Shown in pieces: positions 1-11,837 of a stretch of DNA of 11,997 nucleotides (position 1 is its first letter; each line of letters opens with the position of its first letter). Both the position numbers and the translations under genes were made by a program. This stretch comes from JBFMHD01 sp040752395 [NCBI: Candidatus Hydrogenedentota bacterium] (GTDB lineage Bacteria > JBFMHD01), in NCBI GenBank assembly GCA_040752395.1, contig JBFMHD010000075.1, positions 1 through 11,997 on the forward strand, given 5' to 3'. The notes under the pieces are model-generated. The model searched no databases. It was not told where the DNA came from and saw only the letters and a list, made by a program, of their open reading frames with translations.

Positions 1-345
1 CAATATTTATCACATTCTGAGCATGATGGCAATTATGTTGTAAGTGGTACAAATTACACCATAGAAGGTGATTTAGATGAGTGGCAGGTTTCTTTAATAG
101 TTGCTTACCAGTATATCCAGGCATTACCCTATGCAGGTATTAAATTCAGTGATTGGGATACTGACTGGGCTATATGGCAGACAGATGTACCTGCTACACG
201 AAGTTCTGGTCAAGACGAGGCAGAGGATAATTTTGGTGTAATAGTTGGTTGTGATTTTTATTTTGAGCGAGACTGGAAACTGAATTTAGAGGGTAGATTC
301 TGTGACGAGACCGCGTTTTCAGCCTCGTTAGGTTATACTTTCTAA
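1..345 (+). CDS. C-terminal part of an outer-membrane beta-barrel protein (5' end outside window)
   Basis: An open frame enters from the left edge in frame 1 and encodes 114 residues before TAA at 343-345. The visible part alternates hydrophobic and polar residues, as in membrane beta-strands (WQVSLIVAYQYIQ, NFGVIVGCDFYF, WKLNLEGRF), with acidic and Asn/Gly-rich loops between. It ends ASLGYTF: a terminal aromatic Phe closing the last strand is the classic signal read by the BAM assembly machinery. It therefore looks like the last four or so strands of a small barrel protein in the outer membrane. The transported substrate or role cannot be told. It is followed by a hairpin and an intrinsic terminator, so it is probably the last gene of its transcript. 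The barrel assignment rests on strand pattern and C-terminus, not on a recognised family. Confidence 0.7.
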   Translation, partial: QYLSHSEHDGNYVVSGTNYTIEGDLDEWQVSLIVAYQYIQALPYAGIKFSDWDTDWAIWQTDVPATRSSGQDEAEDNFGVIVGCDFYFERDWKLNLEGRFCDETAFSASLGYTF

Positions 346-909: not shown

Positions 910-2010
910 ATGACAAGATTTAAAAGAATAATTTTGTTATTAATATTAATCCTGTTTTTTTCAAAAGCAGGTGCAGGACCGCTTGTGAGGATAAAGGACA
1001 TATCGCGGTTTGATGGTGTACGTGATAACCAGCTCATAGGTTATGGTCTTGTTGTAGGTTTAGCAGGCACAGGTGATAGTGCCAAGAATTCATTTACTGT
1101 TTCTTCGATAGTAAATATGTTAACGACGCTCGGGATACCTGTTGATAAGAACGTTCTTACGACTAAAAACATTGCTGCGGTTCTTGTTACCGCGACTTTA
1201 CCACCATTTGCAAAAGAAGGCTCAAAAATAGATGTTATAGTATCAGCGATAGGAGATGCATCGAGTTTAAGAAATGGTACTCTTTTACAGACACCGCTTC
1301 GTGCGGCTAATCGCGAGATATATGCAGTAGCACAGGGACAGATATCATTAGGTGGGACAACAGGTATGGGTAGAGGCGGTGGTGGAACTACACACCCGAC
1401 CGTGGCACGGATACCTGAAGGCGCTATTATTGAAATGGGTTTACAAAACGATATTGTTAAGGAAGATGGTAATTTGAAACTTTTACTTTTAAGACCCGAT
1501 TTTACAACTTCATCGAGAATCGCATCTGCTATAAATCAGAATTTTAAAAATAATGTAGCTAAAGCTGTTGATGCAAATCAGATTGTAATTAGTATCCCGG
1601 ATAAATATAAACAGGATGTAATTACTTATGCCTCTATGATAGAAGAGCTACTTGTTGAACCTGATAATTATGCAAGAGTGGTTATAAATGAGAGAACAGG
1701 GACAGTGGTGATGGGCAATGATGTAAGGATAGACGCTGTGGCAATAACACATGGCGATTTAACTGTTACCGTGAGAAGAGAAGAAGAGATGGAATTACTT
1801 CCACAAACTCAAACAGCTCAAACTGAGCGACGTGCCACAAGAAGAGAAGCAGAAAAAAAGGATTCAGTTGTTGTTTTACAATCAGGTGCTTCAATATCAG
1901 ATTTAGTGAGAGCCTTGAATACAATAGGTGCTAAACCAAGGGATATTATAGCAATCCTTCAGGCAATCAAAGAAGCAGGTGCATTGAAAGCTGAACTGGT
2001 ATTTATTTAG
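910..2010 (+). CDS. flgI: Flagellar P-ring protein FlgI
   Basis: Encodes 366 residues, the usual FlgI length. FlgI polymerises in the periplasm around the flagellar rod at the peptidoglycan layer and acts as a bushing. Residues 1-22 form a Sec signal peptide (basic MTRFKR, a long Leu/Ile core, probable cleavage after KAGA). The mature protein begins with the family hallmark VRIKDISRFDGVRDNQLIGY GLVVGL region (26-51). Other signatures are VNMLTTLGI (68-76), a Gly-rich stretch at 153-159, VINERTGTVVMGNDVRI (258-274), and the conserved C-terminus ending AIKEAGALKAELVFI. The ATG is set by AGAGGG eight bases upstream, inside a dispersed repeat. A rod-binding gene follows 24 bases later. The L-ring gene flgH and the chaperone gene flgA, common upstream partners, are not adjacent. 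A P-ring implies a diderm cell envelope. Confidence 0.96.
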   Translation: MTRFKRIILLLILILFFSKAGAGPLVRIKDISRFDGVRDNQLIGYGLVVGLAGTGDSAKNSFTVSSIVNMLTTLGIPVDKNVLTTKNIAAVLVTATLPPFAKEGSKIDVIVSAIGDASSLRNGTLLQTPLRAANREIYAVAQGQISLGGTTGMGRGGGGTTHPTVARIPEGAIIEMGLQNDIVKEDGNLKLLLLRPDFTTSSRIASAINQNFKNNVAKAVDANQIVISIPDKYKQDVITYASMIEELLVEPDNYARVVINERTGTVVMGNDVRIDAVAITHGDLTVTVRREEEMELLPQTQTAQTERRATRREAEKKDSVVVLQSGASISDLVRALNTIGAKPRDIIAILQAIKEAGALKAELVFI

Positions 2011-2034: not shown

Positions 2035-2451
2035 ATGATTGAGAAATCTTTGTTGAATCTCAAGGAAGCTGAACTTAATAATATAAAGGATAAATATTTA
2101 TCTTTACAGAAGAGAAGAGGCGAGAGGTTTGAGATAACAAACAAACCTGATGCAGAAAAGAATGTATACAAAGCTCCCTCTGATGTGCAAAAAAAATTAA
2201 AACAGGTCTCCTGTGATTTAGTATCTTTTCTTGTTCATCAGATGGTAAAAGAGATGCGTAAAACTTTAGATAAAGAAGATGATATGTTTTATGCAGGGTT
2301 CACAGAAGATGTTTTTACTGATATGCTTGATTATGAATATTCTAAATCCCTGGTTAAAAATACAAGAATGAGCATAGTTGACAAAATATACGAACAATTA
2401 TCAAGACATATAAATCCTGGGAACAACAACCAGATTGATATAAATAGATGA
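2035..2451 (+). CDS. flgJ: FlgJ-type flagellar rod-binding protein (no muramidase domain)
   Basis: Encodes 138 residues. Residues 1-50 are charged and low in recognisable features. Residues 52-125 match the rod-binding domain of FlgJ: a helix VSFLVHQMVKEMRKT, then FYAGFTEDVFTDMLDYEYSK, then a closing helix IVDKIYEQL. In gamma-proteobacteria FlgJ also carries a C-terminal glucosaminidase that opens peptidoglycan for the rod. Here the protein ends just after the rod-binding domain, as in many other phyla, so a separate hydrolase must supply that activity. No clear Shine-Dalgarno precedes the ATG (the upstream sequence is AAGCAAGAGCCGGG), which suggests coupling to flgI, 24 bases away. The gene ends before the purine leader region and no terminator is obvious directly after it. 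Confidence 0.85.
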   Translation: MIEKSLLNLKEAELNNIKDKYLSLQKRRGERFEITNKPDAEKNVYKAPSDVQKKLKQVSCDLVSFLVHQMVKEMRKTLDKEDDMFYAGFTEDVFTDMLDYEYSKSLVKNTRMSIVDKIYEQLSRHINPGNNNQIDINR

Positions 2452-2571: not shown

Positions 2572-2598
2572 TTGACAAAAAAACAAATTAAATATTAG
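2572..2598 (+). promoter_or_regulatory. Promoter for the riboswitch leader of the purine cluster
   Basis: A perfect -35 TTGACA (2572-2577) is followed 15 bases later by TATTAG (2593-2598, 4/6 to TATAAT). Transcription would start near 2604, a few bases before the 5' strand of riboswitch stem P1. The -35 is strong and the placement is right, but the -10 is imperfect and the spacer short. The preceding stretch 2452-2571 is very AT-rich and I see no gene in it. Confidence 0.6.
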
Positions 2599-2605
2599 TA
2601 AAGCC

Positions 2606-2711
2606 TTTAACTCATATAATCTTGGTAATTGGTCCAGGAGTCTCTACAAAGAGGCCGTATAACCTCTTTACCACCACACCAATTAGTGTGGTGGTGGTAA
2701 CTATGAGTAAA
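2606..2711 (+). promoter_or_regulatory. Purine (guanine-class) riboswitch aptamer with an inserted hairpin
   Basis: P1 is ACTCATA (2610-2616) with TATGAGT (2702-2708). J1/2 is TAATC. P2 is CTTGG/CCAGG (2621-2625, 2634-2638). L2 contains GG (2631-2632). J2/3 is AGTCTCTAC (2639-2647), matching the family AGTTTCTAC except at the flexible position 48. P3 is a perfect 7-bp stem, AAAGAGG/CCTCTTT (2648-2654, 2663-2669). L3 begins CCGTA, whose CC can pair with the L2 GG. J3/1 ends AACTAT, putting C (2701) at the specificity position 74, which predicts guanine/hypoxanthine rather than adenine. The oddity is a perfect 10-bp hairpin (2670-2679 with 2686-2695) between P3 and J3/1, where the family normally has no extra stem. 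The location before a purine biosynthesis cluster fits the function. Confidence 0.88.
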
Positions 2712-2742
2712 TAGACAAATGCTCAATTAGACCTTTTAAGGG

Positions 2743-2803
2743 GGTCGGGCGAGATCTATTTTACGGTTAGAATGGCTTCCATGGATCTCGACCGACCTTT
2801 TTT
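2743..2803 (+). terminator. Riboswitch-controlled intrinsic terminator before purC
   Basis: 2743-2756 pairs with 2784-2797 over 14 positions with a single G/A mismatch, followed by six T (2798-2803). The loop is 27 bases. This is the expression platform. Ligand binding should stabilise P1 and leave the terminator free to form (OFF switch). A plausible alternative fold uses TGAG of P1 (2704-2707) with CTCA (2722-2725) and GACC (2730-2733) with GGTC (2743-2746), which would hold the terminator's 5' arm. The terminator is clear. The alternative fold is inference. Confidence 0.85.
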
Positions 2804-3037: not shown

Positions 3038-3748
3038 ATGGCTTTATTGTACGAGGGCAAAGCAAAGAGGATGCACACAACCACTGACCCGGAACAGCTT
3101 ATTATGGAGTTCAAAGATTCAGCTACAGCGTTTAATGGCAAGAAGAAAGCTGAATTAAAAAACAAGGGTAAAATCAATAAAAAACTGACGTTATATTTTT
3201 TTGAGATGCTTGAAGACCACGGCATACCAACACATCTTATCAGAGATTTAAGTGAGAATGAAATACTTGTAAAACGTGTTAGCATTATACCGGTTGAGCT
3301 TATTGTTCGCAACATAGTTGCTGGTAGTCTTTCTAAACGTTCAGGGCTACCCGAAGGGACTGCGCTTGATTTTCCAGTTATTGAATATTATTATAAAAGC
3401 GATGAGTTAGGAGACCCTATGATTAATAGTGACCATATATTGGTTTTAAATTTAGCAACAGAAGAAGAGTTGCAGATAATGAGAAGTATGGCTTTAAAAA
3501 TTAATGAGATCCTTTCTTTATTTTTTGATAAAGCAGGTATATTACTTGTTGATTTTAAACTTGAGTTTGGTAAGACTTCGCTTAATGAGATAGTTTTAGC
3601 TGATGAGATATCACCTGATACCTGTAGGTTCTGGGATAAAGAAACAGGTAAAAAACTTGATAAAGACAGGTTCAGACGAGATTTAGGCGATGTGATAGAG
3701 AGTTATATGGAGGTTTTAGGGAGAGTAGAAAATGCATTGTGTTGTTGA
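3038..3748 (+). CDS. purC: Phosphoribosylaminoimidazole-succinocarboxamide synthase PurC
   Basis: Encodes 236 residues, the normal size for bacterial PurC. It condenses CAIR with L-aspartate using ATP to give SAICAR in the cytoplasm. Visible signatures are LLYEGKAKRMH (3-13, the N-terminal nucleotide-binding strand), DSATAFNGKK (27-36), SIIPVELIVRNIVAGS (82-97, a family signature), LLVDFKLEFG (169-178) and LADEISPDTCRFWD (187-200, the second signature, with acidic metal/substrate residues). The ATG has AGGAGG seven bases upstream, provided by leader repeat copy A. It is the first gene after the riboswitch terminator, so its expression should fall when guanine is abundant. Its last 17 bases overlap the start of purS. 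Nothing in the protein looks damaged. Confidence 0.97.
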   Translation: MALLYEGKAKRMHTTTDPEQLIMEFKDSATAFNGKKKAELKNKGKINKKLTLYFFEMLEDHGIPTHLIRDLSENEILVKRVSIIPVELIVRNIVAGSLSKRSGLPEGTALDFPVIEYYYKSDELGDPMINSDHILVLNLATEEELQIMRSMALKINEILSLFFDKAGILLVDFKLEFGKTSLNEIVLADEISPDTCRFWDKETGKKLDKDRFRRDLGDVIESYMEVLGRVENALCC

Positions 3749-4288: not shown

Positions 4289-6721
4289 TTGCAATTTGCA
4301 ATTTATAATGGAGCGAAGCGACAAGAAGAGATGGATAGCGAACTAATTCCGATACTTGAGATGACTGATAGCGAGCTTGGGGAGCTATTTTTTAAGAGGA
4401 AACTATCTTTATCTAAATTTGATCTACGTGTAATCAAGGATTATTTCAGAGAGATAAAGAGAAATCCGACCGAACTTGAGATAGAGGTCATAGCGCAGAC
4501 ATGGAGTGAACATTGTAAACATCGGATCTTCAATGGAAGAATTTTACATAATGAAAATAATAAGATGAAGGTTATAGATGGTATTTTTAAAACTTATATA
4601 AAGGGGGTAACAGAAAAGATAATAAAAGAGCGAGATGGTTTTGTTTTATGTGCATTCGAGGATAATGCAGGATTTATAAAACTTGATGATGAGTTATCTG
4701 TCTGTTTCAAAGTAGAGACTCACAATCATCCCTCAGCGATAGAGCCATACGCAGGTGCGAATACCGGTATAGGTGGTGTTATAAGAGACATTCTTGGTGC
4801 TGGACGTGGTGCAAAACCCGGCGCCTGTATAGATGTTTTTTGTTTCGGACCACCTGATTGTGATATCGCAAATATAGAAGAAGGTGTAATACATCCACAA
4901 AGCATATTAAGGGGTGTAGTAAAAGGTGTAAGAGATTATGGTAATCGTATGGGCATACCTACTCTATGTGGCGCGATACATTTTAATAAGGTCTATACCT
5001 ATAACCCACTTGTTTATTGTGGTAGTGCAGGCATTATACCTATAAAGGATATCAAGAAAGAAGTTTATAAGGGTTTGAGTATAGTTCTTGTTGGTGGGAA
5101 AACAGGCAGAGATGGTTTACGGGGGGCTACTTTCTCATCTGCTTCACTTAGAGAAGATAGCAGAACTGAAGACATAGTTGCAGTCCAGATAGGAAACCCG
5201 ATAGAAGAAAAGAAGATACTTGACTTTGTATTAAAAGCCAGGGAAAAAGGATTGATAGAATATATAACTGATTGTGGTGGTGGTGGTTTATCAAGTGCTT
5301 GTGGGGAAATGTTAAAAACTACTGGTGGTAAGATATATCTTGAGAAGGTTCCGCTGAAAGAGCCGGGTATGAAATCCTGGGAAATATTTTTATCAGAGAG
5401 TCAGGAACGTATGGTTCTGGCAGTGAAAGATGAAAATTTAAAAGAATTATCTTATCTTACTACAATATACGATATTGATTGCACAGAGATAGGTGAGATA
5501 ACAGATACCAAAAGACTCGAGGTATATTATTTTAATAATAAAGTCTGCGATTTAGAGTCTGAGTTCCTGCATAATCCACCTTATAAAGTTTTAGTATCAC
5601 ATTATAGAGACAATAATCTGAAAGCAGAGATTACTTCAAATTATAACGAAAATGAAATCTCTAATTTATTTAAACGTGTTCTTGCTGATATAAATATCGT
5701 CTCAAGGGAACCTGTTATTCGGGAATACGATTTCGAAGTACAGGGTAATACAGTTGTAAAACCTTTAATCGGCGGTCTTGGTGATATGCCACAGGATGGC
5801 GTTGCCATACGGGTTGATGGTAGTAAGAAGTATATAGGTTTAGGATGCTCGATTTTACCCTCGTATGCTTTAATCGACCCATATAATATGGGTTTATCCA
5901 CACTTGACGAAGCGGTTCGACAGATAATAGTTACGGGTGTTAATCCTGAAAAGATTGCGTTACTTGATAATTTCTGTATAGGTAATCCGGATGATTCTTA
6001 TGAACTTGGCAGATTAGTAAAATGTGCCGAGGCGATATCTTATGTTGCATTATGTTATAAGACGCCGTTTATCTCAGGCAAAGATTCATTCTACAACTAT
6101 TATATCTCAGAGAATGGTATACAATCGATACCTGTAAGTCTTTTGATAAGCTCTATTGGGATAATTGATGATAAATCAGATATTACAACGAGTAATATAA
6201 AGAGCGGTAATTCTCTTTTATGTATTGTTGGTTATACCAAAAAAGAGTTAGGTGGCAGTATATATTATAAGATTTTAGATATTAATGGTGGTCGGGTGCC
6301 AGGATTAGACCCGCAACTCGCTTTAAAAATTTATCAGCAGTTTTATAAATGTATTAAAGACAGATTAATTCTTGCAAGCCATGATGTTTCAGAGGGTGGC
6401 GTTATTGTGGCATTAACCGAGATGGGTTTTGGAATAAATTGTGGGATTGAGATAGATGTTGATAGGATAATCAAAGAAGAGGATATGAGTATATCAGAAC
6501 TATTATTTTCAGAATCGAATTCGAGGATAGTTTTTGAGATAGAAGAATCAAATCTTTTTAAGATAAAAGAGCATTTTAAAGATTTACCGTTTACGGTTAT
6601 AGGCAAAAGTGTTAATAATCACAGAAAAATTATAATTAAAAATAAGAACAATATTGTAGTTGAAGAAAGTTTAGAGGAGCTTAAGAATATATGGAAGAAA
6701 GGGTTAGAAGTTTACTATTAA
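4289..6721 (+). CDS. purL: Phosphoribosylformylglycinamidine synthase, synthetase subunit PurL
   Basis: Encodes 810 residues, longer than the ~740-residue small PurL of Bacillus. It converts FGAR, ATP and glutamine-derived ammonia to FGAM together with PurQ and PurS. Signatures are AQTWSEHCKHRIF (69-81), KVETHNHPSAIEPYAGANTG (141-160), TGRDGLRGATFSSA (272-285), TDCGGGGLSSACGEM (328-341), SESQERM (369-375) and SGKDSF (596-601). SEHCKH, the extra segment at 85-130, and SGKDS instead of the SGNVS-type motif of small PurL point to the large PurL clade whose N-terminal PurS-like domain is normally fused. Start: TTG at 4289 is nine bases after the repeat's GGGGGG. The next in-frame start, ATG 4331, lacks a good Shine-Dalgarno, and residues 1-14 look non-native, so both remain possible. 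The 3' end overlaps purQ by 31 bases. Confidence 0.95.
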   Translation: MQFAIYNGAKRQEEMDSELIPILEMTDSELGELFFKRKLSLSKFDLRVIKDYFREIKRNPTELEIEVIAQTWSEHCKHRIFNGRILHNENNKMKVIDGIFKTYIKGVTEKIIKERDGFVLCAFEDNAGFIKLDDELSVCFKVETHNHPSAIEPYAGANTGIGGVIRDILGAGRGAKPGACIDVFCFGPPDCDIANIEEGVIHPQSILRGVVKGVRDYGNRMGIPTLCGAIHFNKVYTYNPLVYCGSAGIIPIKDIKKEVYKGLSIVLVGGKTGRDGLRGATFSSASLREDSRTEDIVAVQIGNPIEEKKILDFVLKAREKGLIEYITDCGGGGLSSACGEMLKTTGGKIYLEKVPLKEPGMKSWEIFLSESQERMVLAVKDENLKELSYLTTIYDIDCTEIGEITDTKRLEVYYFNNKVCDLESEFLHNPPYKVLVSHYRDNNLKAEITSNYNENEISNLFKRVLADINIVSREPVIREYDFEVQGNTVVKPLIGGLGDMPQDGVAIRVDGSKKYIGLGCSILPSYALIDPYNMGLSTLDEAVRQIIVTGVNPEKIALLDNFCIGNPDDSYELGRLVKCAEAISYVALCYKTPFISGKDSFYNYYISENGIQSIPVSLLISSIGIIDDKSDITTSNIKSGNSLLCIVGYTKKELGGSIYYKILDINGGRVPGLDPQLALKIYQQFYKCIKDRLILASHDVSEGGVIVALTEMGFGINCGIEIDVDRIIKEEDMSISELLFSESNSRIVFEIEESNLFKIKEHFKDLPFTVIGKSVNNHRKIIIKNKNNIVVEESLEELKNIWKKGLEVYY

Positions 6722-11769: not shown

Positions 11770-11837
11770 AGCGCGGTTTGCGCTCTACACTATTGGGTTC
11801 TTGGGTTCTTGGGTTATTGCGTTTTTGCGCTTTACAC
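11770..11837 (+). repeat. Compound short repeats after purD
   Basis: AGCGC/GCGCT (11770-11774, 11780-11784) forms a small hairpin. TTTGCGCTCTACAC (11777-11790) recurs as TTTGCGCTTTACAC (11824-11837), 13 of 14 bases identical. Between them are three direct 8-base units, TTGGGTTC, TTGGGTTC and TTGGGTTA (11793-11816). I see no gene in 11740-11997 and no convincing intrinsic terminator directly after purD. Confidence 0.75.

Follow-up and report, generated by a model that had tools for sequence, protein, structure and literature searches.

The window analysed here, i.e., the whole stretch of 11,997 nucleotides at positions 1 to 11,997 of contig JBFMHD010000075.1 (assembly GCA_040752395.1, Candidatus Hydrogenedentota bacterium), carries flgI and a FlgJ-like gene, the latter with a weak NCBIfam match under the cut-off, followed by a purine operon in the order purC, an open reading frame (ORF) at 3732, purL, purQ, purF, purM, purN and purD. 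The ORF at 3732 has no NCBIfam match and occupies what we take to be the place where purS usually stands. PurL (4289–6721) counts 810 residues from its first start codon, TTG, and about 40 of these stand N-terminal to the region matched by the small PurL model. Between the FlgJ-like gene and the purC start (3038) lie 586 bases, in which a match to the purine riboswitch family ends 314 bases 5′ of purC. A promoter scan gave no good promoter 5′ of this leader; the TTGACA at 2572–2577 was not listed and has no adequate −10 element. An inverted repeat with 27-nt arms, 85% complementary and containing short GAGTTGA-like units, occupies 2882–2946, and tandem units of 7–8 nt are also seen at 2969–2992 and 11793–11827. 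The best 80 of 582 PurC relatives in species genomes are 54–61% identical and come from several phyla, and two distant PurC relatives (40–41%) occur in viral contigs. FlgI relatives are at most 47% identical, were present in 4 of 12 genomes tried and were not found in viral contigs. Distant blastn searches for the leader itself found no relative in plasmids or phages.

The Rfam search placed the Purine riboswitch family (RF00167) at 2592–2723 on the forward strand with 45.9 bits (cut-off 37, E = 3.4e-5), and RF00167 is the sole Rfam family above cut-off in the whole window. The alignment spans the entire model and opens a long insertion around P3. The score is low for the family, most surveyed matches scoring 55–98 bits. 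The element belongs to RF00167 by its score above the curated cut-off, by its helices P1, P2 and P3, all of which are present, and by its core bases, i.e., the conserved joining bases U22, U51, C74 and their neighbours, present by alignment. C74, U22 and U51 are ligand contacts in the purine class (PMC9295807, from the portion available). The 2dG-II family (RF03165) was not reported for the window, which returns RF00167 alone when the best of overlapping clan matches is kept. The coordinates and pairings given by the sequence-only reading are correct on direct reading of the sequence. Its remark on an extra base in L3 also holds, since L3 has 8 nt vs 7 in the common CCGTAAA form. The short L2 had gone unmentioned: inside its T-T ends the loop has 6 nt (AATTGG), one below the common 7. 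Loops L2 of 6 nt are known in ordinary aptamers (e.g., L247 and L254), but are paired there with an L3 of 6 nt. The L2 GG and the L3 CC are both present, with L2 one base short and L3 one long, and the L2–L3 contact may be weakened by the altered loop lengths.

The purine riboswitch is a textbook compact three-way junction. In this leader, the perfect 10-bp hairpin that the sequence-only reading had described between P3 and J3/1, hereafter P4, is found both in the sequence and in the minimum-energy fold (MFE). Thirty nucleotides separate P3 from A2700, 26 of them in P4 and then GGUA, and each arm of P4 is unique within the window. The structure that had been named in advance as fatal to this description, with the P4 bases forming a standard P3, was checked and is ruled out, since P3 is perfectly paired without P4. 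The lowest-energy fold of 2600–2716 has these four stems, one pair passing from P3 to P4; the fold z-score is −4.47 for this stretch and −6.00 for 2600–2820, which includes the terminator, none of 200 shuffles being as stable in either case. The alternative P4 register pointed out by the sequence-only reading (2668–2677 with 2691–2700) does have 10 perfect pairs. The drawn register is worth −17.6 kcal/mol (−18.9 with two extra foot pairs) vs −13.7 for the shifted one, a penalty of about 4–5 kcal/mol, and the suggestion that the shift might by itself constitute a second switch is weakened by this cost. Positions of all features are collected in Table 1.

Table 1. Features of the purC leader and its surroundings, in window coordinates.
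Feature	Position	Strand	Remarks
flgI	910–2010		
FlgJ-like gene	2035–2451		NCBIfam match weak, under cut-off
TTGACA, possible −35 element	2572–2577	+	read from sequence, just 5′ of aptamer
Purine aptamer with flanks	2592–2723	+	RF00167
P1, 5′ strand	2610–2616	+	ACTCATA
J1/2	2617–2619	+	Rfam alignment; 2617 presumably the U22 equivalent
P2 hairpin	2620–2639	+	stem TCTTGG 2620–2625 / CCAGGA 2634–2639
L2	2626–2633	+	TAATTGGT / UAAUUGGU; GG would meet L3 CC
J2/3	2640–2647	+	GTCTCTAC / GUCUCUAC; found in ordinary aptamers too
P3 hairpin, 7 bp	2648–2669	+	AAAGAGG 2648–2654 / CCTCTTT 2663–2669
L3	2655–2662	+	CCGTATAA / CCGUAUAA
P4, extra hairpin	2670–2695	+	10 perfect pairs, ACCACCACAC 2670–2679 / GTGTGGTGGT 2686–2695
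P4 apex	2678–2685	+	ACCAAUUA; loop plus two stem bases, exact complement of all 8 nt of L2
P4 loop	2680–2685	+	CAATTA (CAAUUA in RNA)
P4 to J3/1 linker	2696–2699	+	GGUA; GGU pairs with ACC 2731–2733 in antiterminator fold
J3/1	2700–2701	+	A73 and C74 equivalents (A2700, C2701) by Rfam alignment; C74 would pair with guanine
P1, 3′ strand	2702–2708	+	TATGAGT
Alternative hairpin	2705–2725	+	2705–2710 / 2720–2725; captures P1 3′ strand
Antiterminator strand	2737–2745	+	UAAGGGGGU; pairs (including G-U) with 2662–2670
Intrinsic terminator	2738–2803	+	2738–2748 / 2792–2802, upper stem 2750–2759 / 2781–2790, six T 2798–2803
purC	3038–3748	+	first gene downstream of riboswitch

An insert like P4, judged by match length, occurs in none of 288 Rfam Purine matches across three phylum samples, in large searches whose stricter filters can lose weak or long-insert cases. 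The sequence-only description, a purine aptamer of guanine type that bears an additional hairpin between P3 and J3/1, is supported. The samples comprise 199 genomes of the G016 phylum (176 matches, 175 of them with coordinates, the third match of G145 being left out), 198 of the G011 phylum (30 matches) and 103 of the G003 phylum (83 matches). Two matches cover the core only (71 nt) and the others span 95 to 111 nt, vs 132 in the window; the extra bases of the 111-nt match are located in P2/L2. Printed alignments were inspected for 21 of the fetched aptamers (13 aligned with the four-stem model described below and eight with Rfam), and in the eight Rfam alignments inserts at the P3/J3-1 border reach 2 nt at most. 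RF00167 had no match in 198 genomes of the G020 phylum or in 136 of the G012 phylum. Spans reach 104 nt among the matches listed for a further sample of 249 genomes, whose handles are largely those of the G016-phylum set.

A four-stem model built from the window alone (R1) was run on sets of 101, 101 and 398 genomes, of which the last two overlap, and on 86 loci that came from other searches. Its long hits were rejected as further cases of P4; where alignments were printed, they place the model P4 over bases 3′ of an ordinary aptamer. Rfam recognized 39 ordinary Purine aptamers and one 2dG-II aptamer in 40 fetched stretches (35 long R1 hits and five other matches). Among the remaining long hits, G237:C10 and G026:C19 are ordinary in the Rfam surveys, an RF00167 match of 102 nt was obtained for each of L044, L052 and L058, the lengths of L086 and L096 are ordinary, and the weak hit L035 has no Rfam match. 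For viral contigs, a scan with a long-insert pattern gave at least 120 stretches, and R1 on the 80 listed loci reached at best E = 0.18 outside the window; neither of the two loci behind these weak hits has an Rfam match above cut-off. L274, reached via the four-stem model, is a 2dG-II aptamer (RF03165, 62 bits); L299 and L300, both Purine aptamers, have two extra bases (UA) inserted at the P3/J3-1 border and are possibly guanine-II-like; and L295–L298 are four near-alike, low-scoring Purine aptamers (43–47 bits, 56–58% G+C) with a longer L2 and P3 mismatches, possibly a divergent group. On G270:C1, Purine matches at 576015–576115 and 576140–576241 lie on one strand with 24 bases between them and may form a tandem guanine riboswitch, and G300:C42 bears a similar pair (116–216 and 4–74, minus strand).

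Downstream of the aptamer lie a strong intrinsic terminator, absent from the list of a simple terminator scan, and an antiterminator, both unmentioned by the sequence-only reading. The two structures are mutually exclusive across 2738–2745. The antiterminator strand pairs with 2662–2670, which comprises the end of L3, the 3′ strand of P3 and the first base of P4, and both P2 and P4 survive in the antiterminator fold. When the growing transcript is folded, the MFE shifts back and forth from the aptamer to alternative structures. For transcripts that end at 2750 or 2790, it consists of the antiterminator (2662–2670/2737–2745) plus hairpin 2705–2725, and at ends 2740 and 2800 P1 is gone and P3 retained, so that there is no simple course from aptamer to terminator. 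In an energy model that holds neither tertiary contacts nor ligand, the antiterminator minus the aptamer amounts to −2.1, +0.9, +2.7, +2.4, 0.0, +1.3, −1.5 and +4.0 kcal/mol at eight ends from 2745 to 2802. The two structures are close in energy at the first seven of these ends, up to 2796 (−2.1 to +2.7 kcal/mol), and differ by +4.0 to +4.3 kcal/mol once the terminator can form. At ends 2760, 2770, 2780, 2790 and 2804, the same model gives differences of 2.7, 2.4, 0.0, 1.3 and 4.3 kcal/mol with P4 and of 4.2, 3.9, 1.5, 2.8 and 5.8 kcal/mol with P4 omitted, i.e., an effect of 1.5 kcal/mol at all five lengths that slightly favours the antiterminator. The MFE of the full leader contains a pairing of 2603–2610 with 2808–2815, which was set aside as its bases are transcribed after the decision point, outside the terminator. 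A switching path via both P1 and P3 would not be exceptional: of 37 ordinary leaders, which represent 36 places as L096 and L285 are one, 17 re-pair the 3′ strands of both helices downstream by a rough test, and the platform of pbuE is reported to reach through the P3 helix (PMC9756952, in part).

What is computed is the aptamer match, the four-stem minimum-energy fold and two competing structures of near-equal energy. The reading that best accounts for them, to which we give a probability of about two in three, is that of a cis-acting OFF guanine riboswitch on the purine operon, in which an antiterminator made with strands of P1 and P3 would compete with a terminator, and in which P4 would stay folded in both states as a side branch at the P3–J3/1 boundary that replaces no core base. 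We infer guanine as the ligand, the OFF direction and the succession of steps in strand exchange. When guanine is bound, P1 and P3 would hold, the antiterminator would be blocked and the terminator at 2738–2803 would halt transcription. Without guanine, strand exchange would begin at hairpin 2705–2725, which would take the 3′ strand of P1, and would then pass the foot of P4 and let the 3′ strand of P3 pair with 2737–2745; the antiterminator so formed would block the terminator, and purC would be transcribed. P4, which folds on itself, would be retained in the ligand-bound and free states alike. The behaviour of an OFF guanine riboswitch is likely, and P4 would be a tolerated or mildly tuning insert. 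In favour of this reading, J3-1 insertions are on record in a variant group that shares the junction (PMC9295807, in part). Counting against it are the low family score, the altered loop lengths, the lack of any relative of the leader in the searches, the scans that listed neither a good promoter nor the terminator, and the uneven course of the transcript folds. Of the possibilities raised by the sequence-only reading, the best fit is an insertion that is tolerated or serves for tuning, P4 being compatible with both folds and moving their computed balance by only 1.5 kcal/mol; a new subclass finds no support in the ordinary guanine-class joining bases, the ordinary gene context and the single sequence known. 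A natural purine riboswitch whose C74-bearing strand includes a fourth helix would test how far the pocket depends on the stacking of P1 on P3.

A larger part for P4 is suggested by an exact Watson-Crick complementarity, again unmentioned by the sequence-only reading, between the whole 8-nt L2 and the P4 apex. In a comparison of ten loop pairs the runner-up reaches 5 nt, between L3 and the terminator loop. In the 37 ordinary leaders (36 distinct places), no match of L2 to the following 150 nt is longer than 6 nt; the 37 are the rows of standard 102-nt span among 64 with coordinates, and the remainder were dropped, as position did not locate their L2. The probability of an 8-bp match is 0.002 when the 150 nt after P3 are shuffled, a random 6-nt loop is fully complementary to L2 with a probability of 0.0013, and permuting the real loop gives 0.017 for 6 nt and 0.0023 for 8 nt; all of these were judged post hoc, after all helices had been viewed, and hence are too kind. 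The slipped register of P4 frees exactly 2678–2685 in its loop. L2 might accordingly swap partners, kissing L3 when ligand is bound and the P4 apex when the aptamer is free, which would make P4 a working part of the ON state. L2 would at that point be available for pairing with P4, since P3, and hence L3, is undone in the antiterminator, in which P2 and P4 persist; the contact would count 6 bp with P4 as drawn and 8 bp if two pairs open or P4 slips by three. As a second switch the slip would make sense only if these 8 bp between L2 and the opened loop made up for its cost, a compensation that is no more than possible. The partner swap as a whole is nevertheless unlikely. The match was noticed after the fact, which flatters its probabilities, and the duplex energies are modest (−6.7 kcal/mol for the 8-mer and −3.0 kcal/mol for the 6-mer). 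ACCAATTA recurs at 2845–2852, beyond the terminator and with no obvious role there, so that the match may be an accident of an A+T-rich stretch, and no homologous leader that might show covariation came from plasmids, phages, the viral-contig loci listed or the genome samples. If it were true, the tertiary contact that preforms the pocket would itself be switched, the P4 insert would stabilise the antiterminated state, and the riboswitch would change its tertiary partner along with its secondary structure. The stretch 2844–2863, past the terminator and before purC, which includes the second ACCAATTA, is a near-complement of J1/2-P2-L2 (2615–2634), with 16 Watson-Crick and two G-U pairs in 20.

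Two further rival explanations may be considered. According to one, P4 was recently inserted by accident, through replication slippage or as a palindromic repeat, and impairs or even eliminates ligand binding in a riboswitch that is decaying. The low family score, the unusual pairing of L2 and L3 lengths, the GGT triplets in the 3′ arm of P4, which suggest slippage, and the lack of a second example in the surveys are all in keeping with such a history; however, the joining bases and the terminator/antiterminator pair are intact, which is unexpected in a decaying element, and the hairpin arms occur once each in the window. We regard decay as quite improbable. According to the other, P4 rebuilds the pocket and another purine derivative is sensed, as might be argued from published variants with J3-1 insertions whose selectivity is not that of the ordinary class (PMC9295807, in part). 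Those variants alter J2-3 too, whereas J1/2, J2/3 and A73-C74 read here as in ordinary guanine aptamers, and the downstream genes are those of de novo purine synthesis, all of which makes a new ligand class very improbable.

The OFF guanine riboswitch favoured here is closest to the guanine-I class (RF00167; xpt and yxjA of B. subtilis), with which it shares P1-P2-P3, J1/2, J2/3, C74, the GG/CC loop bases and an association with purine genes. A terminator with an overlapping antiterminator is also common to both, as in xpt and in yxjA (for the latter, PMC9756952, in part), and the leader would share the OFF control by transcription termination of guanine-I. Guanine riboswitches commonly control genes of de novo purine synthesis (PMC9295807, same portion). 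The leader differs from guanine-I in the 26-nt hairpin and four bases between P3 and J3/1, in an L2 one shorter and an L3 one longer than the common lengths, and it is called a variant because strict guanine-I has J3/1 directly after P3, where 30 nt stand here before A2700.

Substantial insertions in J2-3 and J3-1 are described for xanthine-II, and guanine-II reportedly has most of these changes; xanthine-II has 2 nt inserted in J2-3 and U51G, and guanine-II 1 nt in J2-3 (PMC9295807, in part). The J3-1 insertion is alike in the present leader, but J2/3 is ordinary and position 51 is a U, so that neither the joint J2-3 and J3-1 insertions of these classes nor the U51G of xanthine-II is found, and the part of PMC9295807 drawn on describes no 10-bp J3-1 hairpin for either. 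The open-licence PMC papers listed, by title and start of abstract, yielded nothing on a hairpin at P3–J3/1 of the purine class. The adenine riboswitch pbuE has, as here, a platform that overlaps through P3 (PMC9756952, in part), but it is an ON switch whose terminator breaks the junction, whereas in this leader disruption of the junction would fall to the antiterminator, and C74 is indicative of guanine. Stable stem-loops are accommodated by many riboswitches at particular positions, with the core left unharmed (PMC2258182); P4 resembles these insertions as a stem-loop, at a purine-class site that the accessible part of that paper does not describe, and even as a plain tolerated insert it would offer a natural attachment point for engineered aptamers.
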